A stretch of 64,000 bases of DNA from Yponomeuta sedellus (Eukaryota; Arthropoda; Insecta; Lepidoptera; Yponomeutidae), in NCBI GenBank assembly GCA_934045075.1, contig OW203738.1:62001-126000 (forward strand). The letters run 5' to 3'. Positions 1,475-18,870 of this stretch are shown here, piece after piece; the stretch's first letter is position 1, and each line of letters begins with the position of its first letter. The notes below the pieces were generated by a model. It was not told the origin of the DNA and ran no database searches. It saw only the letters and a list, made by a program, of their open reading frames with translations. The position numbers were made by a program, and so were the translations under genes.

Positions 1475-1561
1475 CGACGGGGGGGAAATCTTCAAAAAGA
1501 TACCCGACTTCCTGGGGGGAAAGCCGGGTTATGTTGGATTTCTACCAACTAAAACCCCCCC
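1475..1561 (-). other. 3'-terminal three-way junction of TRAS-A
   Basis: Closing stem G7 (1479-1485) with C7 (1555-1561). The inner arm is gttgg (1533-1537) with ccaac (1545-1549). The second arm is cccgac...gccggg, with one mismatch. In sense the closing stem is followed by TTTTAGT and ends with GATTT before the second strand, as in the other telomeric elements. Confidence 0.6.
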
Positions 1562-1780
1562 GGTGGCCCTCTCCGTGCGTGTGGAGGAGGGCTCCGGGAT
1601 CTCAGTGAACACACCGGAGCCCTCGCGCACTGTGCGTAGGCACCCGTCCTCGTTCAGGCACATGCCTGGACAGCCTCCTTTAACGGCGGTGTGCGGCCAC
1701 CACACACCGCCGCCTCCACGGGGTCGCTTGGAGCGGTGGCTCGAGCCCCCACTCTCACCACCCACGACCCCGGGGTCTCC

Positions 1781-1922
1781 GTTTAGTCGCCTCTTACGAC
1801 AGGCCGGAGATACCGTAGCCCTATTCTATGCCCGGGACTACAGGGCTGGGCCCCCTTTTAGTCGGCTCTTACGACAGGCAGGGGATACCGTAGTCTTATT
1901 CTAAGCCCATGACTACAGGGCG
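1781..1922 (-). repeat. Two diverged 66-bp direct repeats in TRAS-A 3' UTR
   Basis: Units at about 1781-1847 and 1857-1922 share a core readable on the + strand as tcttacgacaggc...gataccgtag...actacagggc. Each can fold. GTCG/CGAC is constant, while an outer stem is TCTCCG/CGGAGA in one unit and CCCCT/AGGGG in the other. The second unit overlaps the ORF2 stop codon at 1913. I recall similar motifs in other arthropod repeats but could not check this. Confidence 0.6.
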
Positions 1923-4900
1923 TTGGGGCTGGGGCGAGGCTGGTTAGCGCTGCCTCTGCGTCTCCGCCTCCTCACGGGGTCGGCCCTCTCCCGCTCGCGT
2001 TCGGCCTCCTCCTTCCTAGACATTACTGCCTCGCAGAAGGAGGCCATCGCTTCCCACTGGGGTTTGCCCATCAGCATTTCCGCCACCACAGAGGGTAGCC
2101 GGAGGTCTCCCCCGATCGCAGCAACTAGATCTTGTCGCTGCGATTGCCACGCGGGGCAGACCTCCAACGTGTGCTGGGCATCGTCGCTGGCGAAGCCGCA
2201 GTGATGGCAGGCCGCGGAATTCTCCCTACCGATTCGGTGCAGGTACTCACCGAAGCACCCGTGTCCGGTGAGCACCTGGGTCAGCCGGTAGCTGATCTGC
2301 CCTTCCGCACGGTTCATCCATTCGTCAAAAACGGGCAGGATTGCCCCCACAACCCTCTGTCGCTGCCTCGCCGGGTCCTGTAGGCGCGCTCTCCACTCTT
2401 CAAGGGCGTCCTCGTGCGCCTTCTGCCGCACCAGTGTTACGGCTCTGGGGGGCATGTCCTGCCCGTCCTCACGCATGCGCCGCAGCCTGACGTACAAGGT
2501 TGCATCCATCGACGCCAAGATGTCCAGGGGGGGGAATCTAGCCAGGAGTCCTGCCGCATCGTGGGAGATCGTGCGGTATCCGCGCGCTACCCTTATGGCC
2601 ATCCGCCGCTGTACACTCAGCAGTTTTGCCTTATGTATGCGGTTTCCGGCCAGTTTTCCCGCCCAGATTGGCGCGCCATAGAGGGCAATGGACCGCACGA
2701 TCCCCGCGTACAGTCGCCGAACATTCTCCCTCGGTCCTCCCAGATTAGGCAGGATTCGGTGCAAGGCACCCGCTACCTTTTCGATCCGGGGGACCAGACG
2801 GTTGAAATGCTCGGCAAACTCCCATCGACCGTCTAGGATTACTCCAAGGTACTTCATATACCTCCCCACCTGGACAACGGCGCCGCCGACTTGGACCGTG
2901 GAACTGGGCGGTTCCACGCCTTTGGGAAGGTCGTGAAACCAAAGCGCCTCAGTTTTGTGCGGAGCCACCTGCAGACCCAGGCCTTGGATCTTGCGGACCA
3001 CGCACGCGACCGCATGCTCAGCGACACAGGTGGCCCGCTCAAAGTTTTCGCCTTCTGTCAGCACTAGGGTGTCGTCAGCGTAGCACACCACACTAGCACC
3101 TGTGGGGAGAGGAATGCGGAGCACCACGTCATATGCGAGGTTCCACAGGAGTGGCCCCAGCACCGACCCCTGTGGAACCCCACAGAACATTTCTCTCTCG
3201 TGCAGAACTGCGTCTTGGCCGACGTACTCTATATACCTATCGCTCAAGTAGTCGCCGATGGTGCGACGCAGGTAGTCAGGCACGTGATGGTGGGCGAGCG
3301 CTTCTCTGATTGCCTTCCAGGGTAAGGAATTGAATGCATTCACTATATCTAGGCTGACTGCAAGCACAACCTTACTTTCGGACACCGCCTCTCGAGTGAT
3401 GGAGCGGACGCGCAGAATGGCGTCCACCGTGGAGCGCCCATGCCGGAAGCCAAATTGGCAATCCGATAAATCCGGTCCGACGCTCCACAGGTGGAGATTG
3501 ATACGTTCCGCCAGGACCCGCTCGAAGAGTTTGCCCGCCTCATCAAGCAAGCAAATGGGTCTGTATGCCGACGGTGAGTCCATAGGCCTGCCTTCCTTTC
3601 TGAGGAGCACGAGGCGTGCACGCTTCCACTCCGTGGGGAAGCGCCCTACAGTCACGCAGTCTGTGAGAAGGCGCTGGAACCGTTCGCCCAGGACGCCCAG
3701 AGCCAGCACCCAGGCCCGACCCGGAATGCCATCCGGTCCTGGGGCAGTGTTACGCGCCGCTAAGCGTCTCACGGCTCGCGCCAGCTCCTCCCTTCCCACA
3801 TCCAGGTCCTCCGTCCGCACGGGTGTCAGCAGCGTTGGCGTGCACGGTACGCTCGGCGGGCTGTCTGCAGCTCGCGGGAAGAGGGTGTCGACCACCCTGG
3901 CCGCGAGGCTGGGCTCTAGAGTCTCGGTCAACGGAGGAACCCACGGTCTGAGCTTGTCCATAACCATTTTGTATGGACGCCCCCATGGGTCTCCGTTGAG
4001 GCTGTCCACGAGTTCGCGGTAAGCCCGCTCCTTGGCGTTTGCGACAGCCGCTTGGAAGGCCTTTGTAGCTTCACGATACACATCGTACGCGGCCGTCCTC
4101 TCCTCGGAGGAAGCCCGGCGCCTCCTTCGCGCCCGCAGGTAGGCCCTTCTGGCGGTAAGGCACGTCGCACGCAAGTCCGCCAATTCATCAGACCACCAGT
4201 AGGTAGCGGTGCGTTCCATCGGCCTGGAACGGGGCATCGCGGTGTCGCAGACCTGGGTCATCCTCTCCCGGAACCATGCGGTCTCTTCGTCAGGGCTCGA
4301 TGCTGGAGACGGCTCAACCCACGCCGCAACACTGGCGGCCGCAAGGAGCAGGTCCCGGTCGAGTTTCCCCAGAGCCCATCTCTTCGGTCGACTGACGTCC
4401 CTAGGCGTCTCACGTCCGGAACGCACCGCCACGTCCATAAGGATGTACTGGTGGTCTGAGAGGGTGACAAATTCCTCCGCCACGCGCCAGCCAGATACCA
4501 TAGTATCCGCAGATGGGGACGCCCAGGACAAGTCTACGATAGACTCGCCCTGCCAGCGCACGCAAGTGCTGAGTGACCCACGGTTTAGGAGCCCAAGGTT
4601 TAGGCACGCCGCCCATTCCAGGACGGCCTCCCCCTTGGGCTCGTCCCTGGGTCCACCCCATGCACGCGCGTGGGCGTTGAAGTCCCCTAGGACCAGCACC
4701 GGACGGGGCTGACATCGGCGGACGCACGCCGCGAGATCGTCCATGTAGCCCTCATAATCTGCCAGGGAGACATTGGGAGAGACGTAGCAGGCGACAATTG
4801 CCACGTGACCCCACTGCACTGCCACAAAGCCGGACCCCTTCTCCAGCAGGGAGCACGGCGGGGCCTCCACGCCTCCGCCCCAGTACACTGCTACAGAGCC

Positions 4901-5200
4901 ACCAACGTCGCCGAACCAGCGAGGATGGGTTGCGACTCTGTAGGGCTCCGCAACTACGGCCAGGGCAATCTTATGCTCCGCGAGGGTCTGCATGAGCAGG
5001 TCCTGCGCCCCGCGGCAGTGGTTAAGATTGCCCTGGAGTATTCTGAGTTTAGCTGCGAAAGCTAGGCCTCGTTTGCCTCCGCTTGCCGGCTGGGGCCCGG
5101 CTGACTCGGCGCCGCCGAGTCTCCGTCTGCGGTAATAGAAATGGGTGTGGGAGGGACCTGCTTTTCTCTCCTCCCCCTTCTTTTCTCGGGTGCCGTGCAT
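1913..5200 (-). CDS. TRAS-A ORF2: APE-type endonuclease and reverse transcriptase
   Basis: A 1,095-residue frame. The endonuclease domain begins near residue 51 with QGNLN (N58) and AEPY (E85), then LGDFNAH (170s) and SDHQY (about 248), all typical of the R1 clade. The reverse transcriptase shows SLDIVNAFNSLPW (616-628), GVPQGSVLGP (674-683) and YADD (707-710). A CCHC-like knuckle lies near 998-1015, followed by an Arg-rich tail. The enzyme nicks telomere repeats and copies element RNA at the nick. The first Met (5200) lies 139 bp inside ORF1, and no Met occurs near the true start of the domain. Translation could start there or follow a -1 shift from ORF1. No stop or frameshift is seen inside. 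Confidence 0.93.
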   Translation of the reverse strand: MHGTREKKGEERKAGPSHTHFYYRRRRLGGAESAGPQPASGGKRGLAFAAKLRILQGNLNHCRGAQDLLMQTLAEHKIALAVVAEPYRVATHPRWFGDVGGSVAVYWGGGVEAPPCSLLEKGSGFVAVQWGHVAIVACYVSPNVSLADYEGYMDDLAACVRRCQPRPVLVLGDFNAHARAWGGPRDEPKGEAVLEWAACLNLGLLNRGSLSTCVRWQGESIVDLSWASPSADTMVSGWRVAEEFVTLSDHQYILMDVAVRSGRETPRDVSRPKRWALGKLDRDLLLAAASVAAWVEPSPASSPDEETAWFRERMTQVCDTAMPRSRPMERTATYWWSDELADLRATCLTARRAYLRARRRRRASSEERTAAYDVYREATKAFQAAVANAKERAYRELVDSLNGDPWGRPYKMVMDKLRPWVPPLTETLEPSLAARVVDTLFPRAADSPPSVPCTPTLLTPVRTEDLDVGREELARAVRRLAARNTAPGPDGIPGRAWVLALGVLGERFQRLLTDCVTVGRFPTEWKRARLVLLRKEGRPMDSPSAYRPICLLDEAGKLFERVLAERINLHLWSVGPDLSDCQFGFRHGRSTVDAILRVRSITREAVSESKVVLAVSLDIVNAFNSLPWKAIREALAHHHVPDYLRRTIGDYLSDRYIEYVGQDAVLHEREMFCGVPQGSVLGPLLWNLAYDVVLRIPLPTGASVVCYADDTLVLTEGENFERATCVAEHAVACVVRKIQGLGLQVAPHKTEALWFHDLPKGVEPPSSTVQVGGAVVQVGRYMKYLGVILDGRWEFAEHFNRLVPRIEKVAGALHRILPNLGGPRENVRRLYAGIVRSIALYGAPIWAGKLAGNRIHKAKLLSVQRRMAIRVARGYRTISHDAAGLLARFPPLDILASMDATLYVRLRRMREDGQDMPPRAVTLVRQKAHEDALEEWRARLQDPARQRQRVVGAILPVFDEWMNRAEGQISYRLTQVLTGHGCFGEYLHRIGRENSAACHHCGFASDDAQHTLEVCPAWQSQRQDLVAAIGGDLRLPSVVAEMLMGKPQWEAMASFCEAVMSRKEEAERERERADPVRRRRRRGSANQPRPSPNAL

Positions 5201-7356
5201 TTTTGCCCCATTGTGTGATCGGCGGGTAACCCACGATCTTTACAAATGGCGCAGGCTGGCGGCGCAGAGCACGTGGCGGCTTTGTGTCCGTCTTTTCCGC
5301 ACGAGAAGCAGATGTCGCTTCTGTCGGCCGTGTTTTTGCACTCGGCCCTCACATGTCCAGTCTCTAGGCACCGATAGCAGCGGACCGGCTTCTCTGGCAG
5401 ATATCTGACACGGGCAGACATCCAGTCGCCAATACGAATTCGGGTACCTGCTGTTATTGTTTTTGCCGCTGCTAGGGGACAGCGGACCCACGCCGTGCCC
5501 AGTTGACGCCCGCTCGAACGAATCGCACCTACTTTGACATCCAAGGCGCTGCAGCTGCCAGCAGCACCGATCGCAGCCGCTATGTCCGCCGGGGTGATCG
5601 AGTCGTCGAGATCTAGGACTCGTATTTCCCCCATCTTTACAGGGCGCGCAACTTTCACGGGTAGGTCCGACAGCGCTTCCCTGAGGCGCTCAGCTAGTTT
5701 GTCAGCGTTGCACGTGCTGTCTGGGCCTGTCACCTCAAGCAGAAGCCCGCCATTTCGGCCCTTCCTTTGGCGGACGTCATTTATGCCGCATTCAGAAAGC
5801 TTGACCCTCGCCTTGGCCGCAGACATCACTTGTGCATAAGTGACGTCTGATTCCCCGGGAAGGGTCAGCGAAACTGCCGACGATTTTGGGAGCTTCGGGG
5901 GCCTTGGTTTGCGGCTTTTTTCCTTGGTGCTTGACTTTGGCACTGTTTTGCGCTTGCCTGATTTTCCCTTCTTGCCAACGACCTTTGCCCACGACTCGGC
6001 AGGGTCGGGTCTCTCCAGTGATGCTGTGGACGGCGCAGGTACCGGAGGTAGAGGCATCACTGGGGGAGGTTCTCCGTCGGTCTTTTTCTTCCCTCTTCGC
6101 TTTTTCACCGGTGCGGGGCCAGATTTTGGTTCAAGCGTTGTACCAGACGGTTTGATGGGCAGTGCCACTGGCGTTTGCACTAAAGGCTTTGCTTGTGGGA
6201 ATGCCTTTGCTGTCTTCTTTTTGCTTGCCTGCTGGGGTTTCGCATTGACCACAGGAGAAGTAGTGGTCGCCGCCTGGTGTATAGTCCTACCAGGGAGCAA
6301 TTCGGCCTTGAAAGCTGCCAATTTTGCCTCGACCAGGGCCCCTAGTTGCTCCAAAAGAGCTTCCTGGGGCTGGGTGGACTGTGTGGGTGTGGGTGGAGGG
6401 AAGCTTGCTGGAACCTTCGATTTTCCCCTTTCTCGTCGCATGCCCTGGACCTCGCCACTTAGAGTTGACAGTTTTTCCTCGAGAGCGGCCATCTGTGTAC
6501 GCAGGGAAGCGTTTTCGGCTTCCAGGTATTCCACTCGCGCGGAGCTGGCCGTTCTCTGGACTAGCTCCTCCACAGCGGCTCTAGCAGTCAGGGCAGCCAT
6601 CCGTAGCTCCCGCACGAAGGATCCCTGAAGGTGTCTCGATTTGGCCGCAACAGCCTCTACAACAGTCATCTTTTCGGTGACCCGGGCACCAAGGTCAGCG
6701 GTGGGCTGCTGTCTCATCTCGTCCGCCAGTTCCACCTGGCTGGGCAGGGACTGGGAGGACCGAGTGGCTGCTGGTGGCTGCGTCAAGTCAATGTCGTCTT
6801 CCACCGACAGTGGAGGTCGCTTGCCTTTTGCCTTCTTGGCCCCGATACTGGCACTGTTGGCTACAGTTCGCTTTCTCTTTCTAGCAGACCCCGTCGACAG
6901 CTGTGAGGCCAGTGAAGAATCCGACTCATATTCGTTCTCAGGGAACGCAAGTCTCTCTAGTTCGACAACTGGGTACGATGGGTGGGCGAAAAAGTCGGCA
7001 GCAGTCTGCCGTTTCTCCTTTTCTTCTCCCCCCCTTCCGCTATCTTTCTTCTCCTTCTTTCCACTCTCTGACGTCATAACGTCCTCCGTCTTTCTCTCTT
7101 CCTCCTTATCAGCATCATCTCCCTTCCTTGGTGCTGCGACCTTGTCGCTTCCCTCGCCACCAGTGGCGCTGGAAGCGGCAAAACTGCCCGTACCACATGT
7201 TTGCTCACTTGAGGCGCGCGGCCTCAAGGAGAAGAAGTCGTCATTGCCCCCCCCAGAATACGAGGGGCAGCCCGACGCCGGATTGGCGCCGGGGAGGGAT
7301 TCTCCTGACTCGCAGGTACCCTCCTGGGGTAGTATTTCTTTGTTAACGGACTCCAT
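5062..7356 (-). CDS. TRAS-A ORF1: gag-like RNA-binding protein
   Basis: A 764-residue protein. The N-terminal third is acidic, Ser/Lys-rich and probably disordered. A heptad-like stretch (VEYLEAENASLRTQMAALEEKL) in the middle suggests a coiled coil. A basic Pro/Lys-rich linker follows, then a conserved domain, then three C-terminal zinc knuckles: CYRCLETGHVRAEC, CFSCGKDGHKAATC and a longer third one of the type CAICX(n)HX(n)C. This matches ORF1 of R1-clade elements, which packages element RNA and, in TRAS/SART, brings it to telomeres. It ends with GCC TAG, overlapping ORF2 in the -1 frame. Confidence 0.9.
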   Translation of the reverse strand: MESVNKEILPQEGTCESGESLPGANPASGCPSYSGGGNDDFFSLRPRASSEQTCGTGSFAASSATGGEGSDKVAAPRKGDDADKEEERKTEDVMTSESGKKEKKDSGRGGEEKEKRQTAADFFAHPSYPVVELERLAFPENEYESDSSLASQLSTGSARKRKRTVANSASIGAKKAKGKRPPLSVEDDIDLTQPPAATRSSQSLPSQVELADEMRQQPTADLGARVTEKMTVVEAVAAKSRHLQGSFVRELRMAALTARAAVEELVQRTASSARVEYLEAENASLRTQMAALEEKLSTLSGEVQGMRRERGKSKVPASFPPPTPTQSTQPQEALLEQLGALVEAKLAAFKAELLPGRTIHQAATTTSPVVNAKPQQASKKKTAKAFPQAKPLVQTPVALPIKPSGTTLEPKSGPAPVKKRRGKKKTDGEPPPVMPLPPVPAPSTASLERPDPAESWAKVVGKKGKSGKRKTVPKSSTKEKSRKPRPPKLPKSSAVSLTLPGESDVTYAQVMSAAKARVKLSECGINDVRQRKGRNGGLLLEVTGPDSTCNADKLAERLREALSDLPVKVARPVKMGEIRVLDLDDSITPADIAAAIGAAGSCSALDVKVGAIRSSGRQLGTAWVRCPLAAAKTITAGTRIRIGDWMSARVRYLPEKPVRCYRCLETGHVRAECKNTADRSDICFSCGKDGHKAATCSAPPACAICKDRGLPADHTMGQKCTAPEKRRGRREKQVPPTPISITADGDSAAPSQPGPSRQAEANEA

Positions 7357-7870
7357 AATTTTATTTCTAAGCTTTTCGGCTTCATCTGAAAGAGGTTGGG
7401 TTGTTACACACGTCGCTTCCCCACGACAACGTCGGTGCTATTTTTGGGGCTAGAACCCAGGGCCAGCACTAAGCCTGCAGATTTGGCCGCTAGTGGCTGA
7501 TGCACTCCCCAGCCGCTCAACGAGCACCCCGACGCCACGTGCCTCTGCGCCGAGGATTGAGGATTTTTTATAGAGGTTGTCTCCTCGCAGCCCGAAGGCC
7601 CCCGGTCCCACTCAGTGTGGGCTTCCGGTATGCCGACGGTGGCCGAAGCCTGCCCGGTAGCTGCGCAAGCGCAGATTCCGAGCCCGCCGTCAGGAGCGGA
7701 GCCCAAATTGGACTCCGCCGGACGTCCAGCAGCAGATTGCCACTGGACATCCCCCCCGCCTGGTTTTGGTCCGCGCCGGCCGAAGCCGGTACCCCCCATA
7801 TCTGGAGGGCGTTCCCCTATCCGCCACCTGGGGACGCGTCCGATGGGAGACCAGAAACTCCACACGGAAA
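7357..7870 (-). other. TRAS-A 5' UTR
   Basis: A GC-rich leader of 514 bp ending at the CCTAA array. I looked for an HDV-like ribozyme at its 5' end and did not find a convincing set of strands. Confidence 0.6.
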
Positions 7871-7956: not shown

Positions 7957-8040
7957 CGGAGGGGAAATCTCTGACAGATACCCGGCGTCTCGGGGAAAAC
8001 GCCGGGTTATGTGGGGCTTGCACCCACTAAAACCCCTCCG
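7957..8040 (-). other. 3'-terminal three-way junction of TRAS-B
   Basis: Closing stem cggagggg (7957-7964) with cccctccg (8033-8040), 8 bp. Inner arm gtggg (8011-8015) with cccac (8023-8027). Second arm cccggcg with cgccggg. Stem sequences differ from TRAS-A while pairing is kept. Confidence 0.65.
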
Positions 8041-8222
8041 GTGTTCCGTCTCTCGCCATTCACACCGAGCTACGTGATTCGCAAAGACACCTCCGCAACT
8101 CGGCTGGCGACCCCGTCCCCACCTTTTGCGTTTCCGCATAGGGTAGCGGTGGAGGAGCCATAGGCGCTCCGCTACCCCCATTCTCTTCATCATAGCATCC
8201 ATCATATCTTGTTTGTTGTGCT

Positions 8223-8900
8223 GGTCGCACCAGTTACGATCGTGGGTCGCACGTGTGGTGGCGCCCGCTCCACGTCGATCTAGCACGTACCTAGCACCAC
8301 TCTTCCATCACCTTGTATTTCTGCTCGGCACACCATTCCGATCGCGGGGCAAGCGCGTGGTGACGCCCGGCCCGCGGTCTGGCATGTATAACGAGCCATT
8401 CATTCATCTTCTGTCACTGATCGTACCGTACTAGACGCGGGTCGCAGGTCAGTGACGAGCGCTCCGCGCCAGCCGGAAGGCACGATCTGAGCGCCATCCC
8501 TCTCCTCGTCTTATGTGACGGTCGCACCAGTTACGATCGTGGGTCGCACGTGTGGTGGCGCCCGCTCCACGTCGATCTAGCACGATCCGAGCACCACTCA
8601 TCCATCACCTGGTATATCTGCTCGGCACACCATTCGGATCGCGGGGCAAGCGCGTGGTAACGCCCGGCCCGCGGTCCGGCATGTATAACGAGCCATTCAT
8701 TCTTCTTCTGTCGCTGATCGTACCGTACTAGACGCGGGTCGCAGGTCAGTGACGAGCTCTCCGCGCCAGCCAGCAGGCACGACCTGAGCGCCATCCCTCT
8801 CCTCGTCTTATGTGCCGGTCATGCTACCCAGATCACAACTCCAGATTCAGCACGACCTCTGCACCGTTCATCCATCACATTTACTCACGCACTCCTCGCG
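8223..8900 (-). repeat. 297-bp tandem repeat in TRAS-B 3' UTR
   Basis: Two nearly identical units start at 8223 and 8520, each beginning ggtcgcaccagttacgatcg on the + strand. A third, diverged and partial unit starts at 8817, exactly 297 bp later. The duplication lies in the 3' UTR between ORF2 and the terminal fold. Confidence 0.85.
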
Positions 8901-9044
8901 TGCGCGGGCGGCGCGGCTGGTGCCCGCCGCCCCATAAATTAATCCTCATTCATGAAATCACTTTCATCCCTCTATCTTGCCGACCGCCGTGTCAGGGACA
9001 CTAGACACGGCGCCGACCGACACTTCGTCATTCAGGCGCAAGAC

Positions 9045-12000
9045 CTACCCCGGGTCTTGCACCCTCTGACCGACACCCGCTCTGCGCCTTCTGCGCTCCC
9101 GCCTTCCGCGCCGTGCCTCGGGGTCACGCTCGCGCTGCCTCTCAGCCTCCTCTTTAGCAGTCATGACTGCCTCAGCGAAGGCCTGGACGGCCCGCCAAGC
9201 TACCTCGCTGTCGACCATCGAGCGCACGACGGCCGGCAGCGACAGGTCCACCCCTATCACGACAGTCAGCGCCGCCCTCTCGTCCGCCCACGCCGGGCAC
9301 TCCACCAACGTGTGATGTGCCGTGTCCTCGTCGTGACCGCAGTGGTGGCACTCGGGTGTGGGTTCCGCTCCCGCCACCCTCCACAGATATCTCCCGAAGC
9401 AACCGTGCCCCGAGAGGAGCTGCGTAAGGTGGAAGGAGAGGACTCCGTGCCTCCTCGTCAGCCAACGCTCGAGAACCGGCCTCACCGCGGCGATAGTGTC
9501 GTGGCCCGCCGTAGGCTCCTCGAGTGCGCGCAGCCATCTGATGAGCAGACGTCTGCGAGCTCGCATGCGCCAACGCAGCATCTCCTCCCTCGACGGGGGC
9601 TCCCCCGCGGCCCGGCACTCGGCGACGCGGTCGTACACCAGCGTGAGCACACGTGCATCCATCTCCCAGGGCAGGCAAGCGGCCAGCACACACGCCGCCT
9701 CGTAAGAGACGGTGCGGTAGCCGTGCACCATTCGCAGGCAAATAGCCCTCTGCGGACGGTGCAGCAGGGCCCTGTTCGCCCGCCCCAGGGAGTCCTCCCA
9801 CACGGGTGCTCCGTACAGCGCCATCGACCGCACCACCAGCGCGTAAAGCCGCCGGCAAGCCGCATTCGGCCCACCGACGTTCGGCAGCAGGCGGCCGAGG
9901 GCACTGCACGCGGCCATGAGTCGCGGCGCGAGCCGTCGGAAGTGCTCGCAAAACGTCAGACGAGAGTCCAGAACGATGCCGAGGTAGCGCATGGCCGACC
10001 CGACATCGATCCCCACCCCATCCACCGTCACTCGAGCCCCATTCGGCGGCCCCCTCCGCGGCCCATGAATGCACAGGGCCTCGCATTTGTGGAGCGCCAC
10101 CTCCAGCCCCAGTCCTCGTATGCGCTGAAGCACCTCCTCTACACTCGCGGTAGCGAGCGCGGCCGCTTCGCTAAAGTTAGCGCCGCGGGAGGTGACCAGC
10201 GTGTCATCCGCATAGTAGGTCACGCCGGCCCCCTCCGGTAGCGCACCCCGCAGCACCCAGTCGAAGCCGATGTTCCACAGCGTAGGGCCAAGGGCCGAGC
10301 CCTGCGGAACGCCGCGTGACATGGGTTTCGCCGCCCACTCGTCCCGCGCCGGATACCGGATCTCCCTCTCGGAGAGGTAAGCTCCGATGATGCGGCGCAT
10401 GTGCTCCGGGAAGCCGTGGTACCGGAGCGCCTCCTCAATGCAGGCCCAGGGGAGGGTGTTAAACGCGTTCGCTATGTCGAGCGAAACAGCGAGTAACATA
10501 TCGCGTCCCGCCAGCGCCTCCTCCGCCATCCCCTTCACTCTGCGGATCGCGTCGACGGTGGACCGGAAGTGCCGGAATCCAAATTGGGCCTCGGAAAGGT
10601 CCGGCCCCACCGTCTCCATGTGCCGCACGAGTCGGGCCACCAGGATGCGCTCGAACAGCTTCCCCACCTCATCCAAGAGAACGAGCGGGCGGTAGCCTGA
10701 TGGCAAGTCCGCCGGTCGGCCCTCCTTCCTCAGCAGGACAAGTTTACCCACCTTCCACGGCCGGGGAAACTGGCCCCGCACGAGGCACGCGGTGAGCAAG
10801 GCCCTGAACCTCTCCTCCAGAGGGTCCAGGGCGATGATCAACGCGCGCCCCGGGATCCCGTCCAAGCCCGGGGCCTTTCTGCGGCCGCGAAGGCGCTGCA
10901 TAGCGGCACCGAGCTCTGCCGCCGTCACTTCCGGCGCTTCGGTTTCGGCCGTCCCATCCGGTAGTCCCATCGGGGGAGGCGTAAGTCCATTCGCGGGTGG
11001 AAATAGGCCGGCGACCACAGTGTCCACCGTCTCCGGCCTCATGCTCCGGGTGAGCGGCGGCGCAAACGGGCGGAGCTTGTCTCGCACCATTCGGTACGGA
11101 CGGCCCCACGGGTCTGCGTCAAGGGAGGCCAGCATTTCTGCAAATCCGGCGTCCTTTGCCGCCGCAATGGCTGTCGACAGAGCAGTCTTGCTCTCCCTGT
11201 ATGCCGCAAGCAGGCGGTCCTCCTCCTCGGGATCGCGGAGTCGCCGCCGGCGGCTGCGGGCGTGTGCACGCCTAGCGCGCACGCAGGCGAGCCGCAGTTC
11301 CGCGATCTCCGATGACCACCAGTGCACGCGGCGAAAGGGGGCACCAGGCCGAAGACGGGGCATCGCGACGTCACAGGCTCGCGTTAGCGCCCCACGAAGC
11401 CACTCAACCTCGGCCGAAACGTCTATATCCTCGGGGCTGGCGGCGGAGCCCTTGACCCAGGCCTCAACCTCGGCAGCCTCGTGCAGCAGCTCCCTGTCCA
11501 GCTGTTTGACAGCCCAGCGCGGGGGCTCTCCCGGCAGAGGGTGCCACAGGTCGGTCGGAGCCGTAGAGAGGGCCGTCACATCGAACCGAATGTATCGGTG
11601 GTCCGACAGAGTTTCTACCTCCTCCAAGACTTCCCAACCCGTGACGCGGCGCGCAAGGGAGTGTGTCGCAAACGTGACGTCCACGACCGATCCTCCCTCG
11701 TGTCGTACACAAGTGTGCACCCCTCCCCTGTTCAGTGCCGTGTATCCTCCCGCAACGGCCCAGTCCTCCGCCTCCCTGCCTCGCGCGTTTGTCACCGTGG
11801 ACTCCCACATCGGTGACTTGGCGTTGAGGTCCCCAGCGACGAGTACGTGGCGAGGACGGCGCCCGGCCACCAACACTTCGAGCTGGCGGAGGTATCGCTC
11901 GAACTGCGCAAGTGAGCCGTTCGGAGAGAAGTACACGGCGACGATCATCGTCCCATCGACCTCCCCCGCGACCCACCCGCGCCCCTTCGACAGCCGCTCC

Positions 12001-12203
12001 AACGGTGGTGCCCCAGCGCCCGTCCTCACGACCAATGCGACAGTGCCGTCGTCGTCACCCGCCCAGCCGGCGTGCGCCGGAACCCGGTAAGGCTCAGCGA
12101 CAACCGCCACGTGTATCTGCCACTGCGCAAGGCTCTGGATCAGCAAGTCCTGTGCTCTCGCGCAATGGTTCAGATTGGCCTGCAGGAATCTGCACGTGGC
12201 CAT
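9045..12203 (-). CDS. TRAS-B ORF2: APE-type endonuclease and reverse transcriptase
   Basis: A 1,052-residue protein that starts almost at the endonuclease domain: QANLN (N10), AEPY (E37), VAGDLNA (about 122-128) and SDHRY (200-204). The reverse transcriptase carries SLDIANAFNTLPW (574-586), GVPQGSALGP (631-640) and YADD (664-667). A C-terminal CHHC...H...C knuckle (about 952-969) and an Arg-rich tail follow. Role: site-specific nicking of CCTAA and target-primed reverse transcription. The start codon directly follows the ORF1 stop (TAAATG), a stop-start arrangement like the one used for coupled translation in SART1 (UAAUG). No internal stop is seen. Confidence 0.94.
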   Translation of the reverse strand: MATCRFLQANLNHCARAQDLLIQSLAQWQIHVAVVAEPYRVPAHAGWAGDDDGTVALVVRTGAGAPPLERLSKGRGWVAGEVDGTMIVAVYFSPNGSLAQFERYLRQLEVLVAGRRPRHVLVAGDLNAKSPMWESTVTNARGREAEDWAVAGGYTALNRGGVHTCVRHEGGSVVDVTFATHSLARRVTGWEVLEEVETLSDHRYIRFDVTALSTAPTDLWHPLPGEPPRWAVKQLDRELLHEAAEVEAWVKGSAASPEDIDVSAEVEWLRGALTRACDVAMPRLRPGAPFRRVHWWSSEIAELRLACVRARRAHARSRRRRLRDPEEEDRLLAAYRESKTALSTAIAAAKDAGFAEMLASLDADPWGRPYRMVRDKLRPFAPPLTRSMRPETVDTVVAGLFPPANGLTPPPMGLPDGTAETEAPEVTAAELGAAMQRLRGRRKAPGLDGIPGRALIIALDPLEERFRALLTACLVRGQFPRPWKVGKLVLLRKEGRPADLPSGYRPLVLLDEVGKLFERILVARLVRHMETVGPDLSEAQFGFRHFRSTVDAIRRVKGMAEEALAGRDMLLAVSLDIANAFNTLPWACIEEALRYHGFPEHMRRIIGAYLSEREIRYPARDEWAAKPMSRGVPQGSALGPTLWNIGFDWVLRGALPEGAGVTYYADDTLVTSRGANFSEAAALATASVEEVLQRIRGLGLEVALHKCEALCIHGPRRGPPNGARVTVDGVGIDVGSAMRYLGIVLDSRLTFCEHFRRLAPRLMAACSALGRLLPNVGGPNAACRRLYALVVRSMALYGAPVWEDSLGRANRALLHRPQRAICLRMVHGYRTVSYEAACVLAACLPWEMDARVLTLVYDRVAECRAAGEPPSREEMLRWRMRARRRLLIRWLRALEEPTAGHDTIAAVRPVLERWLTRRHGVLSFHLTQLLSGHGCFGRYLWRVAGAEPTPECHHCGHDEDTAHHTLVECPAWADERAALTVVIGVDLSLPAVVRSMVDSEVAWRAVQAFAEAVMTAKEEAERQRERDPEARRGRRERRRRRAGVGQRVQDPG

Positions 12204-14732
12204 TTACGCGGCAGTGTCCATGTCAGCCTCCGCAGTAGCCGCCCCTGCACCGGGGGTCGGCTGGCGCTGTGGCTGGGGAGGGGCCTGTGGGCCCAGACTC
12301 GCCGCCGGCGCTCTCCTCGGTGCAGGGCAGGCTTTGCTGCCGCACGTGTGCTCAGAAGGCCTACCCGCCGCCGCGCACAGGGTGCAGCGCGGCGTGGCGT
12401 GGCAGGCGCCGGCCTTGTGGCCGGGCTCACCGCAGCGATAACACAGATCACTGCGGTCCTCCGTCGACGGGCATAGCGCACGCGTGTGGCCAGGCTCCAA
12501 GCACCTGTAGCAGCGCAGTGGGCGCGCCGTCAGCAGCTCTACTCGGGCCATGCCCCATCCGACTGAGAGGCGGCCCGCCGCGAGGACCTTCTTCGCCGCA
12601 GACACGGGGCAGCGCACCCAAGCTGCGCAAGCGCCGGTCGCGCCAGGGCGCACCTCACCGCACTTTACCGCCCCCCGTTCACATTCACCCGAGCGAGCCA
12701 CCGCAGCGGTCACCTCGTCCGCTGTGACGGAATCGTCGAGGCCGAACACCCGCAGTTCTGCGGACTTGATCGGCCTCGAAACTCTCGCAGTCTGCGAGCC
12801 AAGAACCTCCTCCAGTTTTCGGGCCAGCGCGTCCGCCTTGGTAGCACTCGCGGCACCCGCCCCCGCCACCTCCAGCACCCGCGCCCCGGTGACCGATCGC
12901 TTGAACCGCAGCGAGGTGATTTCAAGCGAAGCGATGTCAATTTTTGACCTCGCTTCCGAAATCACCTGCGCATACGTCATGCCCGCTTCCATCGCCTCCG
13001 GCTGCAGCGTAATAACTACTGCAGCAGAACGCGGCAGACGCAGCTTGCGCGCGGCCAGCTGGCCCGGCGTGGGTGGCGTCCCCGCGGTCCCACGAGCCAC
13101 CGCCGTCACCGGTCCCGCGAGCGGGACGGACGCAGAGGCGGGCCCCGACAGCTCGCCGTCGGGTACCCGACGCGCCGCCATCGTCCTACGACGCCGGCGA
13201 CGGCGGGCGGGTGTCTCGTGCACCACCCAGTCCGCGGGCGAGGCGGCAGTCGGCGTGTCGTCGATAACCTCGACGTCGACGTCGTCCGTCTCATCATCCA
13301 CACAAGCGGCGGGTGGCGAGCGGGCGGTCGCCGCGTCCTCCCTCACACTCGTCGCCGTCGCGGGCAAGTCGCCGTGCGCGCCTACCGCACGCCCGCTGGC
13401 AGAAGCGGGCGAGCAGCTAACACGTCCGCCAGCCACCGCACCCGCATATGTGCCGCGTGTAGCAACACGTGCCGCCGCCACCCGAGCAGCAGCCGCCGAC
13501 ACCGTAGCGCGCACGCCGGCGCCGGGGGCCGGCGCGGCACGCACCACGGCGGCTGGCGACCCGCGCACCGCGGCGGGCGTTGACCCGCGCACGGCGGCGA
13601 GCGGCGGCCCGCGTACCGCGGCCGCCGGCGGACCACGCACAGAGACGGCCGGCGGCCCACGCACCGTTACGGCCGGCGGCACACGCACCGTGACGGCCAG
13701 CGGCCCACGCACCGTAGCGGCCGGCGGCCCACGCACCGTAGTGGCCGGCGGCCCACGCATCGCGACCGCCGGCGGCACACGCACCGCGACGGCCGGCGGC
13801 CCACGCGCCGTGGCGGCCGGCGGCCCACGCGCCGTCGCGGCCGGCGACCCGTGGGTCACACGTGCCGCAGCAGTCGCCGGTGTTCGCACCGATCCGGAAA
13901 CGGCCGGCGGCCGTACACGCCCGGAGTCAGCCGCCGGCGGCACACGCGCCGCGGCGGCAGCCGGCGAGGCACGAACAGCAGCAGCAGCGGCAGGCAAAGC
14001 GCGAACAGCGGCAGCGGCAGCCTGCACGGGTGCCACAACAGGGGCACGGCTCGCCTTCTCCAGCTCGTCGACCCTAGCGCGGAGGCGGGCGTTCTCCTCG
14101 GAGACACGGCGGGACTCGGCGGTAGCCGTGCGGACACTCAGTTCCGCAACAGCGTCCCCGATCGCCGCCGTAGCCTTCTTCAGGCCACCAAGCAGCTCGC
14201 CCTTTATATTTTTGGACTTGCGGCCCACTTCAGCTATGTATAGAATAGCCGAGTTTATCTGGGCCACAAGTTCCCCCACCGGTACGACGCCCCCCGCGAA
14301 CGCCGCTGACGTCGAGGCACGCGGCGATGTCGACCGACGATAGTACTGAGCCGTAAGGCTCGCCACCTCTGCCTGCGCGCAGAGCTTCTGCTCTTCGCGG
14401 GCGGCCTCCTTCGCCTCACCAGCCGTTCTACGGGCGCCGCCGCGCTTTCCCGTTCTGCCACGGGCCCTTGCGGCGACACCGCCGCGCGTCCCTACGCGGG
14501 ACACCTTTGGGAGCAAAGCCGTCTCCTCCTCGCCATCTGGCTCAGAGTCCCACGACCCATCCGACTCAGTGGAGCGGCCTCGCTTCCTCGCTGCCACCAC
14601 CCACAACTTACCGCGAGTTGGTTTTTTTCCCTCGTGGGTAGTTCGAGCGCCGCCGCCAGACGCCTCGCCGTCTCCCGCCATAGCGGCGCCGGCAGCCGAC
14701 AGATCGGCGCCAGGCGCCGCGGCCGCATCCAT
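12204..14732 (-). CDS. TRAS-B ORF1: gag-like protein with long Ala/Pro repeat
   Basis: An 842-residue protein. It has a charged N-terminus (residues about 1-130), then a predicted helical/coiled-coil segment around SEENARLRARVDELEKA (about 215-230). A low-complexity region follows, with roughly a dozen degenerate 8-residue units of the type VRGPPAAT. Then comes the conserved domain preceding three zinc knuckles: CYRCLEPGHTRALC, CYRCGEPGHKAGAC and a longer third. It should coat element RNA and guide it to telomeres. Compared with TRAS-A ORF1, the Ala/Pro block is the main difference. The start was taken as the first Met of the frame. The stop touches the ORF2 start. Confidence 0.9.
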   Translation of the reverse strand: MDAAAAPGADLSAAGAAMAGDGEASGGGARTTHEGKKPTRGKLWVVAARKRGRSTESDGSWDSEPDGEEETALLPKVSRVGTRGGVAARARGRTGKRGGARRTAGEAKEAAREEQKLCAQAEVASLTAQYYRRSTSPRASTSAAFAGGVVPVGELVAQINSAILYIAEVGRKSKNIKGELLGGLKKATAAIGDAVAELSVRTATAESRRVSEENARLRARVDELEKASRAPVVAPVQAAAAAVRALPAAAAAVRASPAAAAARVPPAADSGRVRPPAVSGSVRTPATAAARVTHGSPAATARGPPAATARGPPAVAVRVPPAVAMRGPPATTVRGPPAATVRGPLAVTVRVPPAVTVRGPPAVSVRGPPAAAVRGPPLAAVRGSTPAAVRGSPAAVVRAAPAPGAGVRATVSAAAARVAAARVATRGTYAGAVAGGRVSCSPASASGRAVGAHGDLPATATSVREDAATARSPPAACVDDETDDVDVEVIDDTPTAASPADWVVHETPARRRRRRRTMAARRVPDGELSGPASASVPLAGPVTAVARGTAGTPPTPGQLAARKLRLPRSAAVVITLQPEAMEAGMTYAQVISEARSKIDIASLEITSLRFKRSVTGARVLEVAGAGAASATKADALARKLEEVLGSQTARVSRPIKSAELRVFGLDDSVTADEVTAAVARSGECERGAVKCGEVRPGATGACAAWVRCPVSAAKKVLAAGRLSVGWGMARVELLTARPLRCYRCLEPGHTRALCPSTEDRSDLCYRCGEPGHKAGACHATPRCTLCAAAGRPSEHTCGSKACPAPRRAPAASLGPQAPPQPQRQPTPGAGAATAEADMDTAA
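13560..13870 (-). repeat. 24-bp minisatellite inside TRAS-B ORF1
   Basis: On the + strand, units of the type gccggcggcccacgcaccgt plus 4 bp recur about a dozen times with substitutions. The unit length is a multiple of three, so copy-number change keeps the frame and adds or removes eight residues. Confidence 0.85.
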
Positions 14733-14905
14733 CGTAGCTTATAACGTGCACTACGCACGCACACGCCAAACACAGATGCACACGTATGCAGGCACTTCAC
14801 ACTTTTATTTACTAATAAATAAACAAAAGCAATTGCTGCGGGTACTTATTTGCAAAGTAGCGAACAGCGCACACATCTACTCGCAATGGCGTACCGACGC
14901 AGACT
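14733..14905 (-). other. TRAS-B 5' UTR
   Basis: A short leader, AT-rich in its middle, ending in ...GACTC next to CCTAACC. The neighbouring TSE-M copy 1 has the same GACTC beside its telomere junction. Confidence 0.6.
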
Positions 14906-14913
14906 CAACCTAA

Positions 14914-14915: not shown

Positions 14916-14944
<29 letters not shown>

Positions 14945-15054
14945 CACCCAGGAGAAACCCCAATTACGGGTACCACCGGCTCGGGGGAGCACAGTGGTTA
15001 TGTCGGACTCCCCGCCCTGAAAAGGGCGGTATACCGACTAAAACTCCTGGGGTG
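14945..15054 (-). other. 3'-terminal three-way junction of TSE-M copy 1
   Basis: Closing stem cacccaggag (14945-14954) with ctcctggggtg (15044-15054), one bulge. Inner arm gtcgg (15002-15006) with ccgac (15034-15038), enclosing ccgccct/agggcgg. Second arm accac/gtggt. Compared with the TRAS elements every stem has changed sequence but still pairs. Confidence 0.65.
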
Positions 15055-15665
15055 TTCCTTCGCACCGCAAAGGACGGGGCCACGGGAACGCTTGCGCACA
15101 CTTCCGCGACCCCGTCTGCGGGCGCCCTTTCGGGCACTCCTTCGGCGGCGCTTCTGCCCCGTCGGTGCTCGACGACGGGGCTAGAAAACGCCGCATCTCT
15201 TCGTTGGAGCGCATAGGGGCCAAGTGCGTATGATCTTGGCCCCCATACGCCCCAACGCGCCGCCCCCTCCATCCCATCGCAAGCCGGTCGATGAGACGGG
15301 GAGGGCGGCGCACCTCCTCGTTGAGGCGCGTGGGGGCCCAAGCGTCCCGGTCCCCACACGCCCCACACGTGAGGCCCGTCACGTCGCCCACCAGCACTTC
15401 TCTGAAAGCAGAGAAGGCGGTGAGCGACCGCGCGGGCCCCCTCCGTGCCAGAAGGCACCCTCGGAACACGCAAGGGCGCCTTCCGGCCCGCCGTGATGGA
15501 CGCGGAGAGTCCCCCGACCCTCCGCGTCCCGGCGGCCACTCTGGTCCGACTGGTACGAGGCGCGCGCGCTTCCGCGCAGCGGCGCCCCCCCCAGTCGGTC
15601 CTTCATTCGGTTGGTCGCCTGGGTCCCGCTCCACAAAGTGAAACAGGGCCCACGCGACCCCTCCC

Positions 15666-15829
15666 GCCAGATTTTTCGCCGCTGGCCAGCAAGATCCCAT
15701 AAAGAGAAGTTACTGACCAGCGCCCAGGGTGCACCGGCCCTTGCCACTTACCCTTCCTACTGGTTCAAGATGAATCAGTAGGAACGGAAGCGGAAGGGCA
15801 CACGGGAAGGTAATCTGGCATCGCACCCC
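15666..15829 (-). ncRNA. HDV-like self-cleaving ribozyme candidate, TSE-M copy 1
   Basis: In sense: P1 GGGGTGC (15829-15823) pairs with GCACCCT (15732-15726), starting with a G.U wobble as in HDV. P2 GCCAGAT (15819-15813) pairs with ATCTGGC (15672-15666). P4 GCTGG pairs with CCAGC (15721-15717/15685-15681). The joining segment GGCGAAAA (15680-15673) matches HDV GGCGAA around the catalytic C, and P1 is followed by GGGC as in HDV. Between P2 and P1' lie GCCCTT/AAGGGC (P3 candidate) and an added TTCCTACTG/CAGTAGGAA hairpin. The P1 start is at or within six bases of the element's 5' end. Confidence 0.72.
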
Positions 15830-15905: not shown

Positions 15906-16733
15906 CCCCCTCGACGGTTGCCGCCTTGTCGTGGCGAGGGGGCTTTAGTAGCCGTGGTTGCGGGACCACGGTGAAACAAAGAGCAACCGCGGAGGGACCG
16001 CTCCTCGCTTGCGAGTTGAGCGGTCAGTAGGTGGCGGTGCTGTATGGGCAGCACCGCGACCGTTTAGTCGCTTGGGCCCTGCTTCACACCGTGGAGTGGG
16101 ACCCAAGCGACCAAGAGGAGGAGGTCCGGCTGGGGGGGGCGCCTCCGGGCGCCTCGTACCAGTCGGATCAGGGCCGTGGGCGGGGGGTCAGGGGACTCTC
16201 CGCCTCTAACACGGCGGGCTGGAAGGCGCCCCTGCGTGATCCGGGGGTGCCTTCCGGCACAGAGAGGGCCCGCGCGCTCGCTCTCCACCTTCTCTGTTCT
16301 CAGAGAAGCGCTGGTGAGCGACGCGACGGGCCTCGCAGCGATGCGCCGCCCCCTCTAGTCCCATTGTTTTAGCAATGTGATGTGGGGGGGCGGCGCATTG
16401 GAGCGTATGGGGGCCTATATGGCCCCCCCGAGGAGACGCGGCGTTTCCTTGCCCCGTCGTAGCGATGGGGCAGGGGGCGCCGCTGGGGAGCCACCTTGGC
16501 TCCCCCACCAGTCGAGCCCCTCACGTGGAGGGGCGACCTCTTGCCGGGTCGCGGTGATTTAACCTTTGGCCTACCCCGCGACCCGGTAGAGGAGAGGAGG
16601 ATCACCGCGGGGGTTTAGTGGGTAGTCCAGCCCTCGGGCTGGGAGTCCCACACGAAGCCGCTCTGTTGTCCCCTGACAGCAGAGTGGTGAAGTGCGTAAA
16701 TGCATTCCCCCGCGTTACCAAAAAAAAAAAAAA
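15906..16733 (+). mobile_element. TSE-P copy C, internally deleted
   Basis: About 0.81 kb plus poly-A 16720-16733. It is like copy B but lacks the block of hairpins corresponding to 524-729 of copy B. The GCGGTGCTG/CAGCACCGC hairpin joins directly to GACCGTTTAGTCGC (junction near 16057). Both ends and the 3' fold are intact. Copy H has the same deletion, so this is a propagating subtype. Confidence 0.85.
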
Positions 16734-16776: not shown

Positions 16777-16873
16777 CGAGGAGAAATCCATTTACGGACT
16801 ACCCACCATTACTAGGTGGGCGTGTGTGGGACTCGCCCAGCAGAGTGCTGAGAATACCCACTAAAACTCCCCG
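16777..16873 (-). other. 3'-terminal three-way junction of TSE-M copy 2
   Basis: Closing stem cgaggag (16777-16783) with ctccccg (16867-16873), one A.C mismatch. Inner arm gtggg (16826-16830) with cccac (16857-16861), enclosing cagca/tgctg. Second arm cccacc/ggtggg. Confidence 0.55.
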
Positions 16874-17364
16874 TCTTCCATTCATGCCCTTGCTGGGGGT
16901 TGGCCTGGGACCGAAATCATTCACCAGTCCACCCCCGGGCTGCCCAGCTTGCGAGCCGGGCTGGCACCTATAGGGGACTGCCTCGGAAGATGAGGCAATC
17001 CCCTTGACTCCAGGATGAATGCACGCGCCAGTGCGGCTGGCGCGTGCAGACCAACTTAAGGGCAGAAGAGGGCCAGCAGAAAACTACCTCCCTCTCCCGC
17101 CCCCACCTCTGCTCCGGATTAGAGCGGCTGGAGGCTCCTCCTCCTTCCGCCCCATCCCCGCAGACCACCATACGCACCAACGCGCCGCCCCCCCCCCGCC
17201 CCACTGCCCCTGCAATGGGACAAGAAGAGGGCGGCGCATCGATGCGAGGCCCATCACGTCGCTCACCAGCGCTTCTCTGCCGAGGCAGAGAAGGTGGAGA
17301 GCGAGCGCGTGGGCCCTCTCCGTGTCAGAGGCGGAGGAACGGGGTTCCCTCCGCCTCCGGCCAT

Positions 17365-17750
17365 CCGGTCCGACTGGTACGAGGCGCCCGAAAGCGCCCC
17401 CCCCAGCCGGATCTCCTCCTCTTGGTCGCCTGGGCCCCACTCCACAGTGTGAAGCAGGGACCAGGCGACGACACCACCGACCGCTCCGAAGAGCGGTTCC
17501 TCCGGTCCGACTGGTACGAGGCGCCCAAAAGCGCCCCCCCCAGCCGGACCTCCTCCTCTTGGTCGCCTGGGCCCCACTCCACAGTGTGAAGCAGGGACCA
17601 GGCGACGACACCACGTACCACTCCGAAGAGCGGTACCTCCGGTCCGACTGGTACGAGGCGCCCGAAAGCGCCCCCCCCAGCCGGACCTCCTCCTCTTAGT
17701 CACCTGGGCCCCACTCCACAGTGTGAAGCAGGGACCAGGCGACGCCACCG
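17365..17750 (-). repeat. 137-bp tandem units of the TSE core
   Basis: Units 17365-17501 and 17502-17638 are each exactly 137 bp, and a partial third runs 17639-17750. Each holds two core hairpins: the ccgactgg/ccagccgg arm enclosing ggcgc/gcgcc, and the gtcgcctgg/ccaggcgac arm. A spacer hairpin differs between units (acc-gctc/gagc-ggt against gtacc/ggtac). Confidence 0.85.
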
Positions 17751-17754
17751 GATT

Positions 17755-17917
17755 CCAGATTTTTCGCCGCTGGCCAGCAAGATCCCATAAAGAGAAGTTA
17801 CTGACCAGCGCCCAGGGTGCACCGGCCCTTGCCACTTACCCCTCCTACTGGTTCAAGATGAATCAGCAGGAACGGAAGCGGAAGGGCACACGGGAAGGTA
17901 ATCTGGCATCGCACCCC
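17755..17917 (-). ncRNA. HDV-like ribozyme candidate, TSE-M copy 2
   Basis: Same module as in copy 1, with GGCGAAAA at 17768-17761 and P1 starting at 17917 directly beside the telomere repeat. The added hairpin has two changes that leave wobble pairs. P2 is shortened to 6 bp because the base after ATCTGG is A. Confidence 0.7.
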
Positions 17918-17956: not shown

Positions 17957-17985
<29 letters not shown>

Positions 17986-18870
17986 CACCCAGGAGAAACC
18001 CCAATTACGGGTACCACCGGCTCGGGGGAGCACAGTGGTTATGTCGGACTCCCCGCCCTGAAAAGGGCGGTATACCGACTAAAACTCCTGGGGTGTTCCT
18101 CCGCACCGCAAAGGACGGGGCCACGGGAACGCTTGCGCACACTTCCGCGACCCCGTCTGCGGGCGCCCTTTCGGGCACTCCTTCGGCGGCGCTTCTGCCC
18201 CGTCGGTGCTCGACGACGGGGCTAGAAAGCGCCGCATCTCTTCGTTGGAGCGCATAGGGGCCAAGTGCGTATGATCTTGGCCCCCATACGCCCCAACGCG
18301 CCGCCCCCTCCATCCCATCGCAAGCCGGTCGATGAGACGGGGAGGGCGGCGCACCTCCTCGTTGAGGCGCGTGGGGGCCCAAGCGTCCCGGTCCCCACAC
18401 GCCCCACACGTGAGGCCCGTCACGTCGCCCACCAGCACTTCTCTGAAAGCAGAGAAGGCGGTGAGCGACCGCGCGGGCCCCCTCCGTGCCAGAAGGCACC
18501 CTCGGAACACGCAAGGGCGCCTTCCGGCCCGCCGTGATGGACGCGGAGAGTCCCCCGACCCTCCGCGTCCCGGCGGCCACTCTGGTCCGACTGGTACGAG
18601 GCGCGCGCGCTTCCGCGCAGCGGCGCCCCCCCCAGTCGGTCCTTCATTCGTTTGGTCGCCTGGGTCCCGCTCCACAAAGTGAAACAGGGCCCACGCGACC
18701 CCTCCCGCCAGATTTTTCGCCGCTGGCCAGCAAGATCCCATAAAGAGAAGTTACTGACCAGCGCCCAGGGTGCACCGGCCCTTGCCACTTACCCTTCCTA
18801 CTGGTTCAAGATGAATCAGTAGGAACGGAAGCGGAAGGGCACACGGGAAGGTAATCTGGCATCGCACCCC
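17957..18870 (-). mobile_element. TSE-M copy 3, near-identical to copy 1
   Basis: Tail of 29 T (17957-17985). Body and 3' fold match copy 1 with only a few substitutions. The 5' end abuts AACCTAACC with no extra bases, so the first base of ribozyme P1 is the element's first base. Confidence 0.87.
18707..18870 (-). ncRNA. HDV-like ribozyme candidate, TSE-M copy 3
   Basis: P1 starts at 18870 and P2' (ATCTGGC) ends at 18707. The GGCGAAAA joining segment is present. It appears identical to the copy 1 module. Confidence 0.72.

Follow-up and report, generated by a model that had tools for sequence, protein, structure and literature searches.

HDV-like self-cleaving ribozymes are known at the 5′ ends of LINEs of the R2, R4, L1 and RTE clades (PMC3774820). 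The nearest case to the elements described here is that of the R2/R1 hybrid SIDEs of Drosophila, non-autonomous elements that carry a 5′ HDV-like ribozyme and an R1 3′ end and are taken to be released from a co-transcript and mobilised by the R1 machinery (PMC3414825). In trypanosomes, an HDV-like ribozyme lies 5′ of the autonomous LINE L1Tc and of its non-autonomous partner NARTc (PMC4035085, PMC8256844). The telomeric LINEs of Lepidoptera, SART and TRAS, insert into TTAGG repeats in opposite orientations (PMC10088271). Here, we analyse short retroelements, TSE-M, in a window of 64,000 nt from Yponomeuta sedellus (assembly GCA_934045075.1, contig OW203738.1, positions 62,001 to 126,000; the window is this whole stretch), in which a predicted HDV-type ribozyme fold is placed directly at the element 5′ end, as in SIDE-like elements.

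Like the SIDEs, TSE-M is non-autonomous and combines a 5′ HDV-like module with a 3′ end that may be related to that of an R1-clade LINE; however, the SIDEs occupy the 28S rDNA site with a ribozyme from R2 (PMC3414825), whereas TSE-M has telomeric and TTAGG-like targets, a presumed SART-like helper and a hairpin in L3. R2 ribozymes and the TSE-M module share the order P1-P2-P3-P1′-P4-P2′ and a C in J4/2 (putatively catalytic in TSE-M), and R2 ribozymes process the element 5′ end, as the TSE-M module would; extra length often lies in J1/2 in R2, whereas in TSE-M J1/2 has 3 nt and the extra length is in L3 (PMC3774820). R2 elements for which the cut falls at the element's own 5′ end usually show variable junctions (PMC3774820), whereas the interstitial TSE-M junctions are uniform, a difference that counts against the ribozyme reading. 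The L1Tc/NARTc pair belongs to another LINE clade, host and target, and the presumed helper LINEs of TSE-M, unlike L1Tc, have no such 5′ fold (PMC4035085, PMC8256844). With the SART/TRAS LINEs, TSE-M shares its place in TTAGG repeats and a 3′ structure common to the LINEs of the window, but it is only 885–1141 nt long and starts with a ribozyme-like module (PMC10088271). Among the papers listed in a search of the open-licence literature, none dealt in its title or abstract with HDV-like ribozymes of telomeric elements of the SART/TRAS type. As far as that literature shows, what is new for elements with HDV-like ribozymes is the telomeric setting, the SART-like partners, the L3 hairpin (to our knowledge), the uniform interstitial 5′ junctions and a possible twin on the opposite strand.

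In its left part, the window consists of a telomeric array that reads (CCTAA)n in plus-strand orientation; non-repeat sequence follows to the right. The elements and modules are as follows.

1475..7868, minus strand: other SART-like LINE (ORF1 5062-7356, ORF2 1913-5200)
7957..14906, minus strand: SART-like LINE, candidate helper (ORF1 12204-14732, ORF2 9045-12203)
14945..15829, minus strand: TSE-M copy 1 (subtype I), 885 nt, poly(A) 14916-14944
15666..15829, minus strand: putative ribozyme module of copy 1 (subtype I), identical to that of copy 3 over 164 nt
16777..17917, minus strand: TSE-M copy 2 (subtype II), 1141 nt, poly(A) just beyond
17755..17917, minus strand: putative ribozyme module of copy 2 (subtype II), 163 nt, 2 differences from copies 1 and 3
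17986..18870, minus strand: TSE-M copy 3 (subtype I), 885 nt, poly(A) 17957-17985
18707..18870, minus strand: putative ribozyme module of copy 3 (subtype I), 164 nt, P1 base 1 being element base 1
15906-26541, and also from 372, plus strand: TSE-P family, sharing body blocks with TSE-M

In both LINEs, ORF1 has a zinc-knuckle match and ORF2 has endonuclease and reverse transcriptase domains. The second of the two ORF2 proteins drew 271 protein matches; among the 120 listed, the first four named by species are from the lepidopterans Helicoverpa, Cydia, Plutella and Papilio. We take the Papilio xuthus entry to be a SART element, and we label the LINEs SART-like because of this presumed identity, their target and their orientation. 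The LINE at 7957..14906 has the same orientation and the same TT^AGG junctions as TSE-M. Its kind differs from TSE-M at the 5′ end: in the few copies available, LINE 5′ ends vary by 1–2 nt (one copy has a longer prefix), and an anchored descriptor found no HDV fold there in either LINE family, so the presumed helper would be independent of a ribozyme. Elsewhere in the window lie two oppositely oriented, similar coding regions (36793-38646 and 43605-45629), which we take to resemble alkaline phosphatase genes, and a minus-strand ORF (29534-30292) that presumably resembles a mariner-type transposase.

By the pairing potential of their sequence, all three TSE-M modules in the window fit an HDV-type nested double pseudoknot, P1-P2-P3-P1′-P4-P2′. 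Its parts in copy 3, directly upstream of which lies (TTAGG)nTT, are as follows.

18864..18870, minus strand: P1 5′ strand GGGGTGC (partner GCACCCT 18767-18773)
18861-18863, minus strand: J1/2 GAT
18853..18860, minus strand: P2 5′ strand GCCAGATT (partner AATCTGGC 18707-18714)
18850..18852, minus strand: P3 5′ strand ACC (partner GGT 18774-18776)
18841..18849, minus strand: L3 UUCCCGUGU, with U and G spaced by five and a P1.1 strand at positions 2 and 3
18778..18840, minus strand: 63-nt hairpin between L3 and P3′, 22 pairs in the main helix
18764..18773, minus strand: P1′ GCACCCT, then P1.1 strand GGG
18722..18763, minus strand: P4 hairpin, with compensatory C-G/U-A and G-C/A-U changes
18715..18721, minus strand: J4/2 GGCGAAA with the presumed catalytic C
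17986..18094, minus strand: TSE-M 3′ end, a structure common to the long LINEs and TSE-P

The pairings that the original prediction had read from the three minus-strand copies (P1 GGGGTGC/GCACCCT, beginning with a G.U pair; P2; P4 GCTGG/CCAGC; GGGC after P1′; GGCGAA before P2′) are all present. P2 has 8 bp, its outermost pair missing in the copy at 17917, and P3 ACC/GGT sits exactly between P2 and P1′. L3 starts TTCCCGT and places the signature U and G at module positions 22 and 27, five apart; the paper that gives this spacing rule states that the U/G pair is fully conserved across the natural variants of the HDV ribozyme (PMC3386971). P1.1 pairs L3 positions 2–3 with the two bases after P1′ (pair types U.G, U-A and C-G at one pair, plus an invariant C-G), and GGCGAA of J4/2, which holds the putative catalytic C, is invariant in 13/13 aligned modules.

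The TSE-M module departs from the usual plan in L3. Between the P3 strands lie 73 nt, made up of a 9-nt loop, the 63-nt hairpin and 1 nt (C), in place of a short L3, and the hairpin is no part of the usual HDV-type core. A short L3 is usual, but the papers, in the parts drawn on, do not name it as defining; what they give instead is the double pseudoknot together with five or six bases that are invariant. L3 of HDV-type ribozymes is part of the active site, and we know of no natural HDV-like ribozyme with such a hairpin insert. The pseudoknot-free minimum free energy fold of the module (−85.1 kcal/mol) has P1 and P4 formed, both P2 strands single and L3 bases paired with CGG in place of P3; a fold constrained to contain P1, P3 and P4 is 3.1 kcal/mol less favourable, and the contribution of P2 would be −10.7, with no pseudoknot penalty counted.

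The whole fold recurs in 26/26 full-length modules from the window and from a further 194 kb of telomeric sequence (BLAST matches, with alignments <90 nt dropped and 2 partial modules left out of the count), and all 28 full or partial modules lie in TTAGG sense. A further descriptor match, in locus L070, is probably chance. The covariance-model check proposed with the original prediction came out negative: no Rfam HDV family matched the TSE-M modules, including subtype III, up to E=10. The L3 hairpin may explain this, yet TSE-P, with a short L3, is also without a match. At E≤10, the three stretches searched gave 18, 4 and 25 sub-threshold matches, mostly to microRNA families and none to HDV, the best lying opposite TSE-P on the other strand (a flavivirus stem-loop, E 0.0053) and on subtype III (a microRNA, E 0.007). 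At gathering level, the only Rfam matches in the whole window were four to tRNA (at 34216, 36276, 54605 and 57802; 32–39 bits), which are mutually similar and may be tRNA-derived SINEs. Pattern matches outside the host, in 33 viral contigs (16-mer), 2 bacterial contigs (20-mer) and 1 viral contig (18-mer), were taken as chance.

Scanned freely, the descriptor is fairly common: 258 shuffled windows contained 48 places with P2 of at least 7 bp and 19 with at least 8. The significance of the TSE-M fold thus comes from its anchoring at the first base of the element. So anchored, the descriptor with P2 of at least 8 bp was fitted by 4/56,468 shuffles; with P2 of at least 7 bp and the L3 and P1.1 rules added (U/G spacing, first P1.1 pair, no gap before P1′), it was fitted by 10/1,425,117, figures to be read with descriptors written after the sequence was seen, although published work supplied the U/G rule and the order of the helices. 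The anchored fold was absent from 10 other repeat junctions at nine offsets each (90/90 negative); in 5 of the 10 the junction is a 5′ end from one of the two LINE families, and in the other 5 it is an end of unverified intactness.

Comparisons among subtypes show a core that is better conserved than the periphery. The modules of copies 1/3 and copy 2 are identical at 161/163 positions, both differences falling in the L3 hairpin with pairing kept as G.U, and similarity between subtypes I and II drops right after P2′, in agreement with the shared module originally predicted. A third subtype, found in the flanks of four fetched loci, has a module ~80% identical. Between one copy each of subtypes I and III, with core positions set by the analyst, 2/53 core positions and 30/112 peripheral positions are changed (Fisher p 2.5e-4), that is, subtype III keeps 51/53 of the core and 82/112 of the periphery; where P4 of subtype I has GCTGG/CCAGC, that of subtype III has GTTAG/CTAAC. 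In an alignment of 13 modules, 11 of which are distinct, pairing holds in 98.5% of 612 cells, against 31–50% in slid-partner controls. Both partners have changed in six pairs, of which the L3 hairpin has four and P4 has two. None of 500 shuffles reached the observed paired cells, doubly changed cells or covariation score; 255/500 reached the number of doubly changed pairs and 483/500 the number of pair types. The double changes come from few lineages, and the C-G type in P1.1 is from one copy. An earlier count, made on 7 distinct modules, agrees with this. Among the 11 distinct modules there is no variation in P1, in P3 or in the inner six P2 pairs, and the P2 end pair is lost in subtypes II and III. 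Covariation is therefore silent on P1, P3 and P2, helices that are supported by conservation and geometry. A genome search with a pattern for an altered P1 base 4 gave four copies, all uncompensated.

The 5′ ends of the elements coincide with the start of the fold. A module search of the host genome (657.5 Mb) gave 922 first-look candidates; of these, 40 were scored, all 40 being full-length and identical, and 30 were fetched, of which 23 were classed as interstitial and 7 as telomeric. Interstitial sites mostly contain AGG, and in 21/23 interstitial copies target-site duplications of 12–17 bp, mostly beginning AGG, abut P1 base 1. The remaining two have one extra T (L059) and a 1-nt difference in a T run (L061). 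The abutting duplications place element base 1 at P1 base 1 at separate insertions, in samples chosen for full-length matches and with some targets recurring (L037, L058 and L087 share one). For subtype III, 505 first-look candidates yielded 40 scored, all full-length, and in 20/20 upstream flanks (40 nt), taken from loci that are not near the end of a contig, the boundary falls precisely at base 1. At telomeric junctions, 14/21 copies start exactly at base 1 and 7/21 have 1–10 extra bases: GGGGT (two), GGGGTGCGAT (two), GAGTCT, T and CT. Five of these seven extensions look like duplications reaching into the neighbouring element; T and CT do not. The two window copies predicted to begin at P1 base 1 do so, and the GAGTCT that precedes the third (copy 1, 15829) belongs to a target-site duplication, AGGTTAGGTTGAGTCT, because this sequence recurs after the copy 1 poly(A), at the LINE 5′ end at 14906. 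A template jump, considered as the origin of GAGTCT, was dropped since the duplication was found.

Several interstitial copies share a repeated target near GGGTTGGTGGAGGATTGTAAGACAG, an apparent insertion hot spot (L048, L066, L088, L090, L091, L096, L098, L106 and L107). TSE-M also lies within or at other TSE-M (L043, L044, L056, L058, L102 and L108), giving tandem arrays and doubled 5′ starts, and nested copies sometimes reuse the same target-site duplication.

Behind the module, the subtypes are related. The two bodies had been described as unrelated; they in fact have blocks in common at 73–90% identity, and both share blocks with the plus-strand TSE-P (69–92%). One subtype III body is 92% identical to that of subtype I. 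Related bodies with differing module similarity indicate that module and body histories are partly separate. A 137-bp tandem repeat (2.8 copies, 17364-17749) in the copy 2 body multiplies a piece of the body common to TSE-P. At the 3′ end, the two LINEs, TSE-M I, TSE-M II and TSE-P fit one consensus fold, with TTTAGT in 5/5, ACATAACC in 3/5 and a closing GC stem; 9 of its 22 pairs have at least one double change, and the overall covariation term (+0.24) is not favourable. TSE-M and LINE 3′ ends have this structure and short motifs in common, BLAST-level similarity covering only 26–29 nt. At 885–1141 nt, TSE-M is too short for a LINE ORF2. Because TSE-M and the LINEs share the 3′ plan, orientation and TT^AGG junction, TSE-M is likely to be mobilised by a SART-like LINE. 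In our reading it is non-autonomous, parasitises telomeric LINEs of the R1 clade and probably lacks its own promoter.

A ribozyme is the best reading of how the module can fold, of the precision with which separate insertions begin, of the conservation of the core and of the compensated pair changes: it is likely that the modelled TSE-M module is an HDV-type self-cleaving ribozyme that would cut a co-transcript immediately 5′ of element base 1 and so set the RNA 5′ end. The same evidence backs the original prediction of a 5′-end ribozyme, while its picture of purely telomeric elements gives way to one in which 23/30 fetched copies are interstitial. TSE-M lies in the sense of an RNA reading from the subtelomere to the chromosome end. 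Read-through RNA of the G-rich (TERRA-sense) strand would cross (TTAGG)n, telomeric or other upstream sequence, into TSE-M; the pseudoknot would fold and the C of GGCGAA would act in cleavage, leaving an element RNA that starts GGGGUGC. With its SART-like 3′ structure and poly(A), this RNA would be taken up by the SART-like reverse transcriptase and inserted at TT^AGG, and the interstitial copies may be due to the endonuclease of that LINE acting where a site resembles TTAGG.

A sharp transcription start site would give uniform 5′ ends too, and an exact 5′ end could mark the start of the element's own Pol II promoter, the pseudoknot serving otherwise, for example in binding a LINE protein. Promoters of their own are attributed to R1-clade LINEs (PMC3414825), a 5′ pseudoknot of R2 RNA is reported to bind protein (PMC8256844), and the SART-like LINEs, with 5′ ends varying by 1–2 nt, manage without an HDV fold. 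However, neither a start site nor a protein site needs P1, P2, P3, the U/G spacing, P1.1 and GGCGAA jointly, and the position of P1 at element base 1 and the conservation of just the core positions would be left unaccounted for; we regard this explanation as improbable. Less probable still, with only a slim chance, is an inactive HDV-like fold carried as a relic in the 5′ end. The L3 insert and the lack of an Rfam HDV match are what one might expect of a relic, but the core is kept while the periphery has diverged by 27%, subtypes I, II and III all retain the fold, and copies whose modules are 100% identical have exact 5′ ends. A Pol III SINE of the ordinary kind would likewise be short and non-autonomous, with a precise 5′ end and target-site duplications, but this reading is very improbable for an element of 885 nt with internal TTTT runs (such as TTTTAGT in the 3′ end), which should stop Pol III, and with no tRNA-, 7SL- or 5S-type Rfam match in its module.

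The ribozyme reading of TSE-M may have a counterpart on the other strand. A 22-nt piece of the TSE-P 5′ end matches 863 places in the genome with two mismatches allowed (1 for the reversed control). Among the 100 places listed, one (C4:10068254) is plainly interstitial; the others are blocks at contig starts, near contig ends or on C1 and C2. The 5′ end is CCCCCTCGACGG in 9 junctions from telomeric loci, and 7 others have doubled or extended starts that look like duplications. An HDV-type fold can be drawn from this end.

15906..15989, plus strand: candidate TSE-P HDV-type fold
15906-15912/15936-15942, plus strand: P1 CCCCCTC/GAGGGGG, followed by J1/2 GA
15915-15921/15983-15989, plus strand: P2 CGGTTGC/GCAACCG
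15923-15925/15933-15935, plus strand: P3 GCC/GGC
15926-15932, plus strand: L3 UUGUCGU, 7 nt, U and G five apart, with a G-C P1.1 pair
15952-15971, plus strand: P4
15972-15982, plus strand: J4/2 UGAAACNAAGA

This version, with a 7-bp P1, P3 GCC/GGC and L3 UUGUCGU, replaces a first reading with an 8-bp P1 and P3 CCG/TGG. Anchored rules with P2 of at least 6 bp and a short L3 were fitted by 2/1,425,117 shuffles, and a pattern fixing most of the core matches 29/29 TSE-P copies from the window and fetched loci. A seventh P4 pair, left free in the pattern, is T-A in 8, G-C in 14 and T.G in 7, and J4/2 is constant except for the base that follows its presumed catalytic C. Against the fold, base 1 is C rather than G, J1/4 has 8–9 nt and the P2 end pair is lost in 8/29; no Rfam HDV family matched the TSE-P module. 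When more of the downstream sequence is included, the prediction favours a different fold (−50.4), and for the exact 84 nt the values are −36.7 versus −32.8 plus −10.2 for P2. From this modelling, we give the TSE-P 5′ end about even chances of being an HDV-type ribozyme. That both telomere strands carry ribozyme-tipped parasites, TSE-M in TTAGG sense with its L3 hairpin and the compact TSE-P in CCTAA sense starting with C, each freed from TERRA-like or antisense transcripts and riding a SART-type LINE, seems to us slightly less probable than its opposite.

If the ribozyme reading of TSE-M is true, the strategy of R2, which is to live in a transcribed repeat and be cut out by a ribozyme, would have been carried from rDNA to telomeres, and would be used by elements that rely on the machinery of another LINE. 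It would also follow that the HDV-type active site can accommodate a large L3 hairpin and that ribozymes cut telomeric RNA, possibly from both strands; if the reading for both strands is true, this would happen at hundreds of sites per genome.
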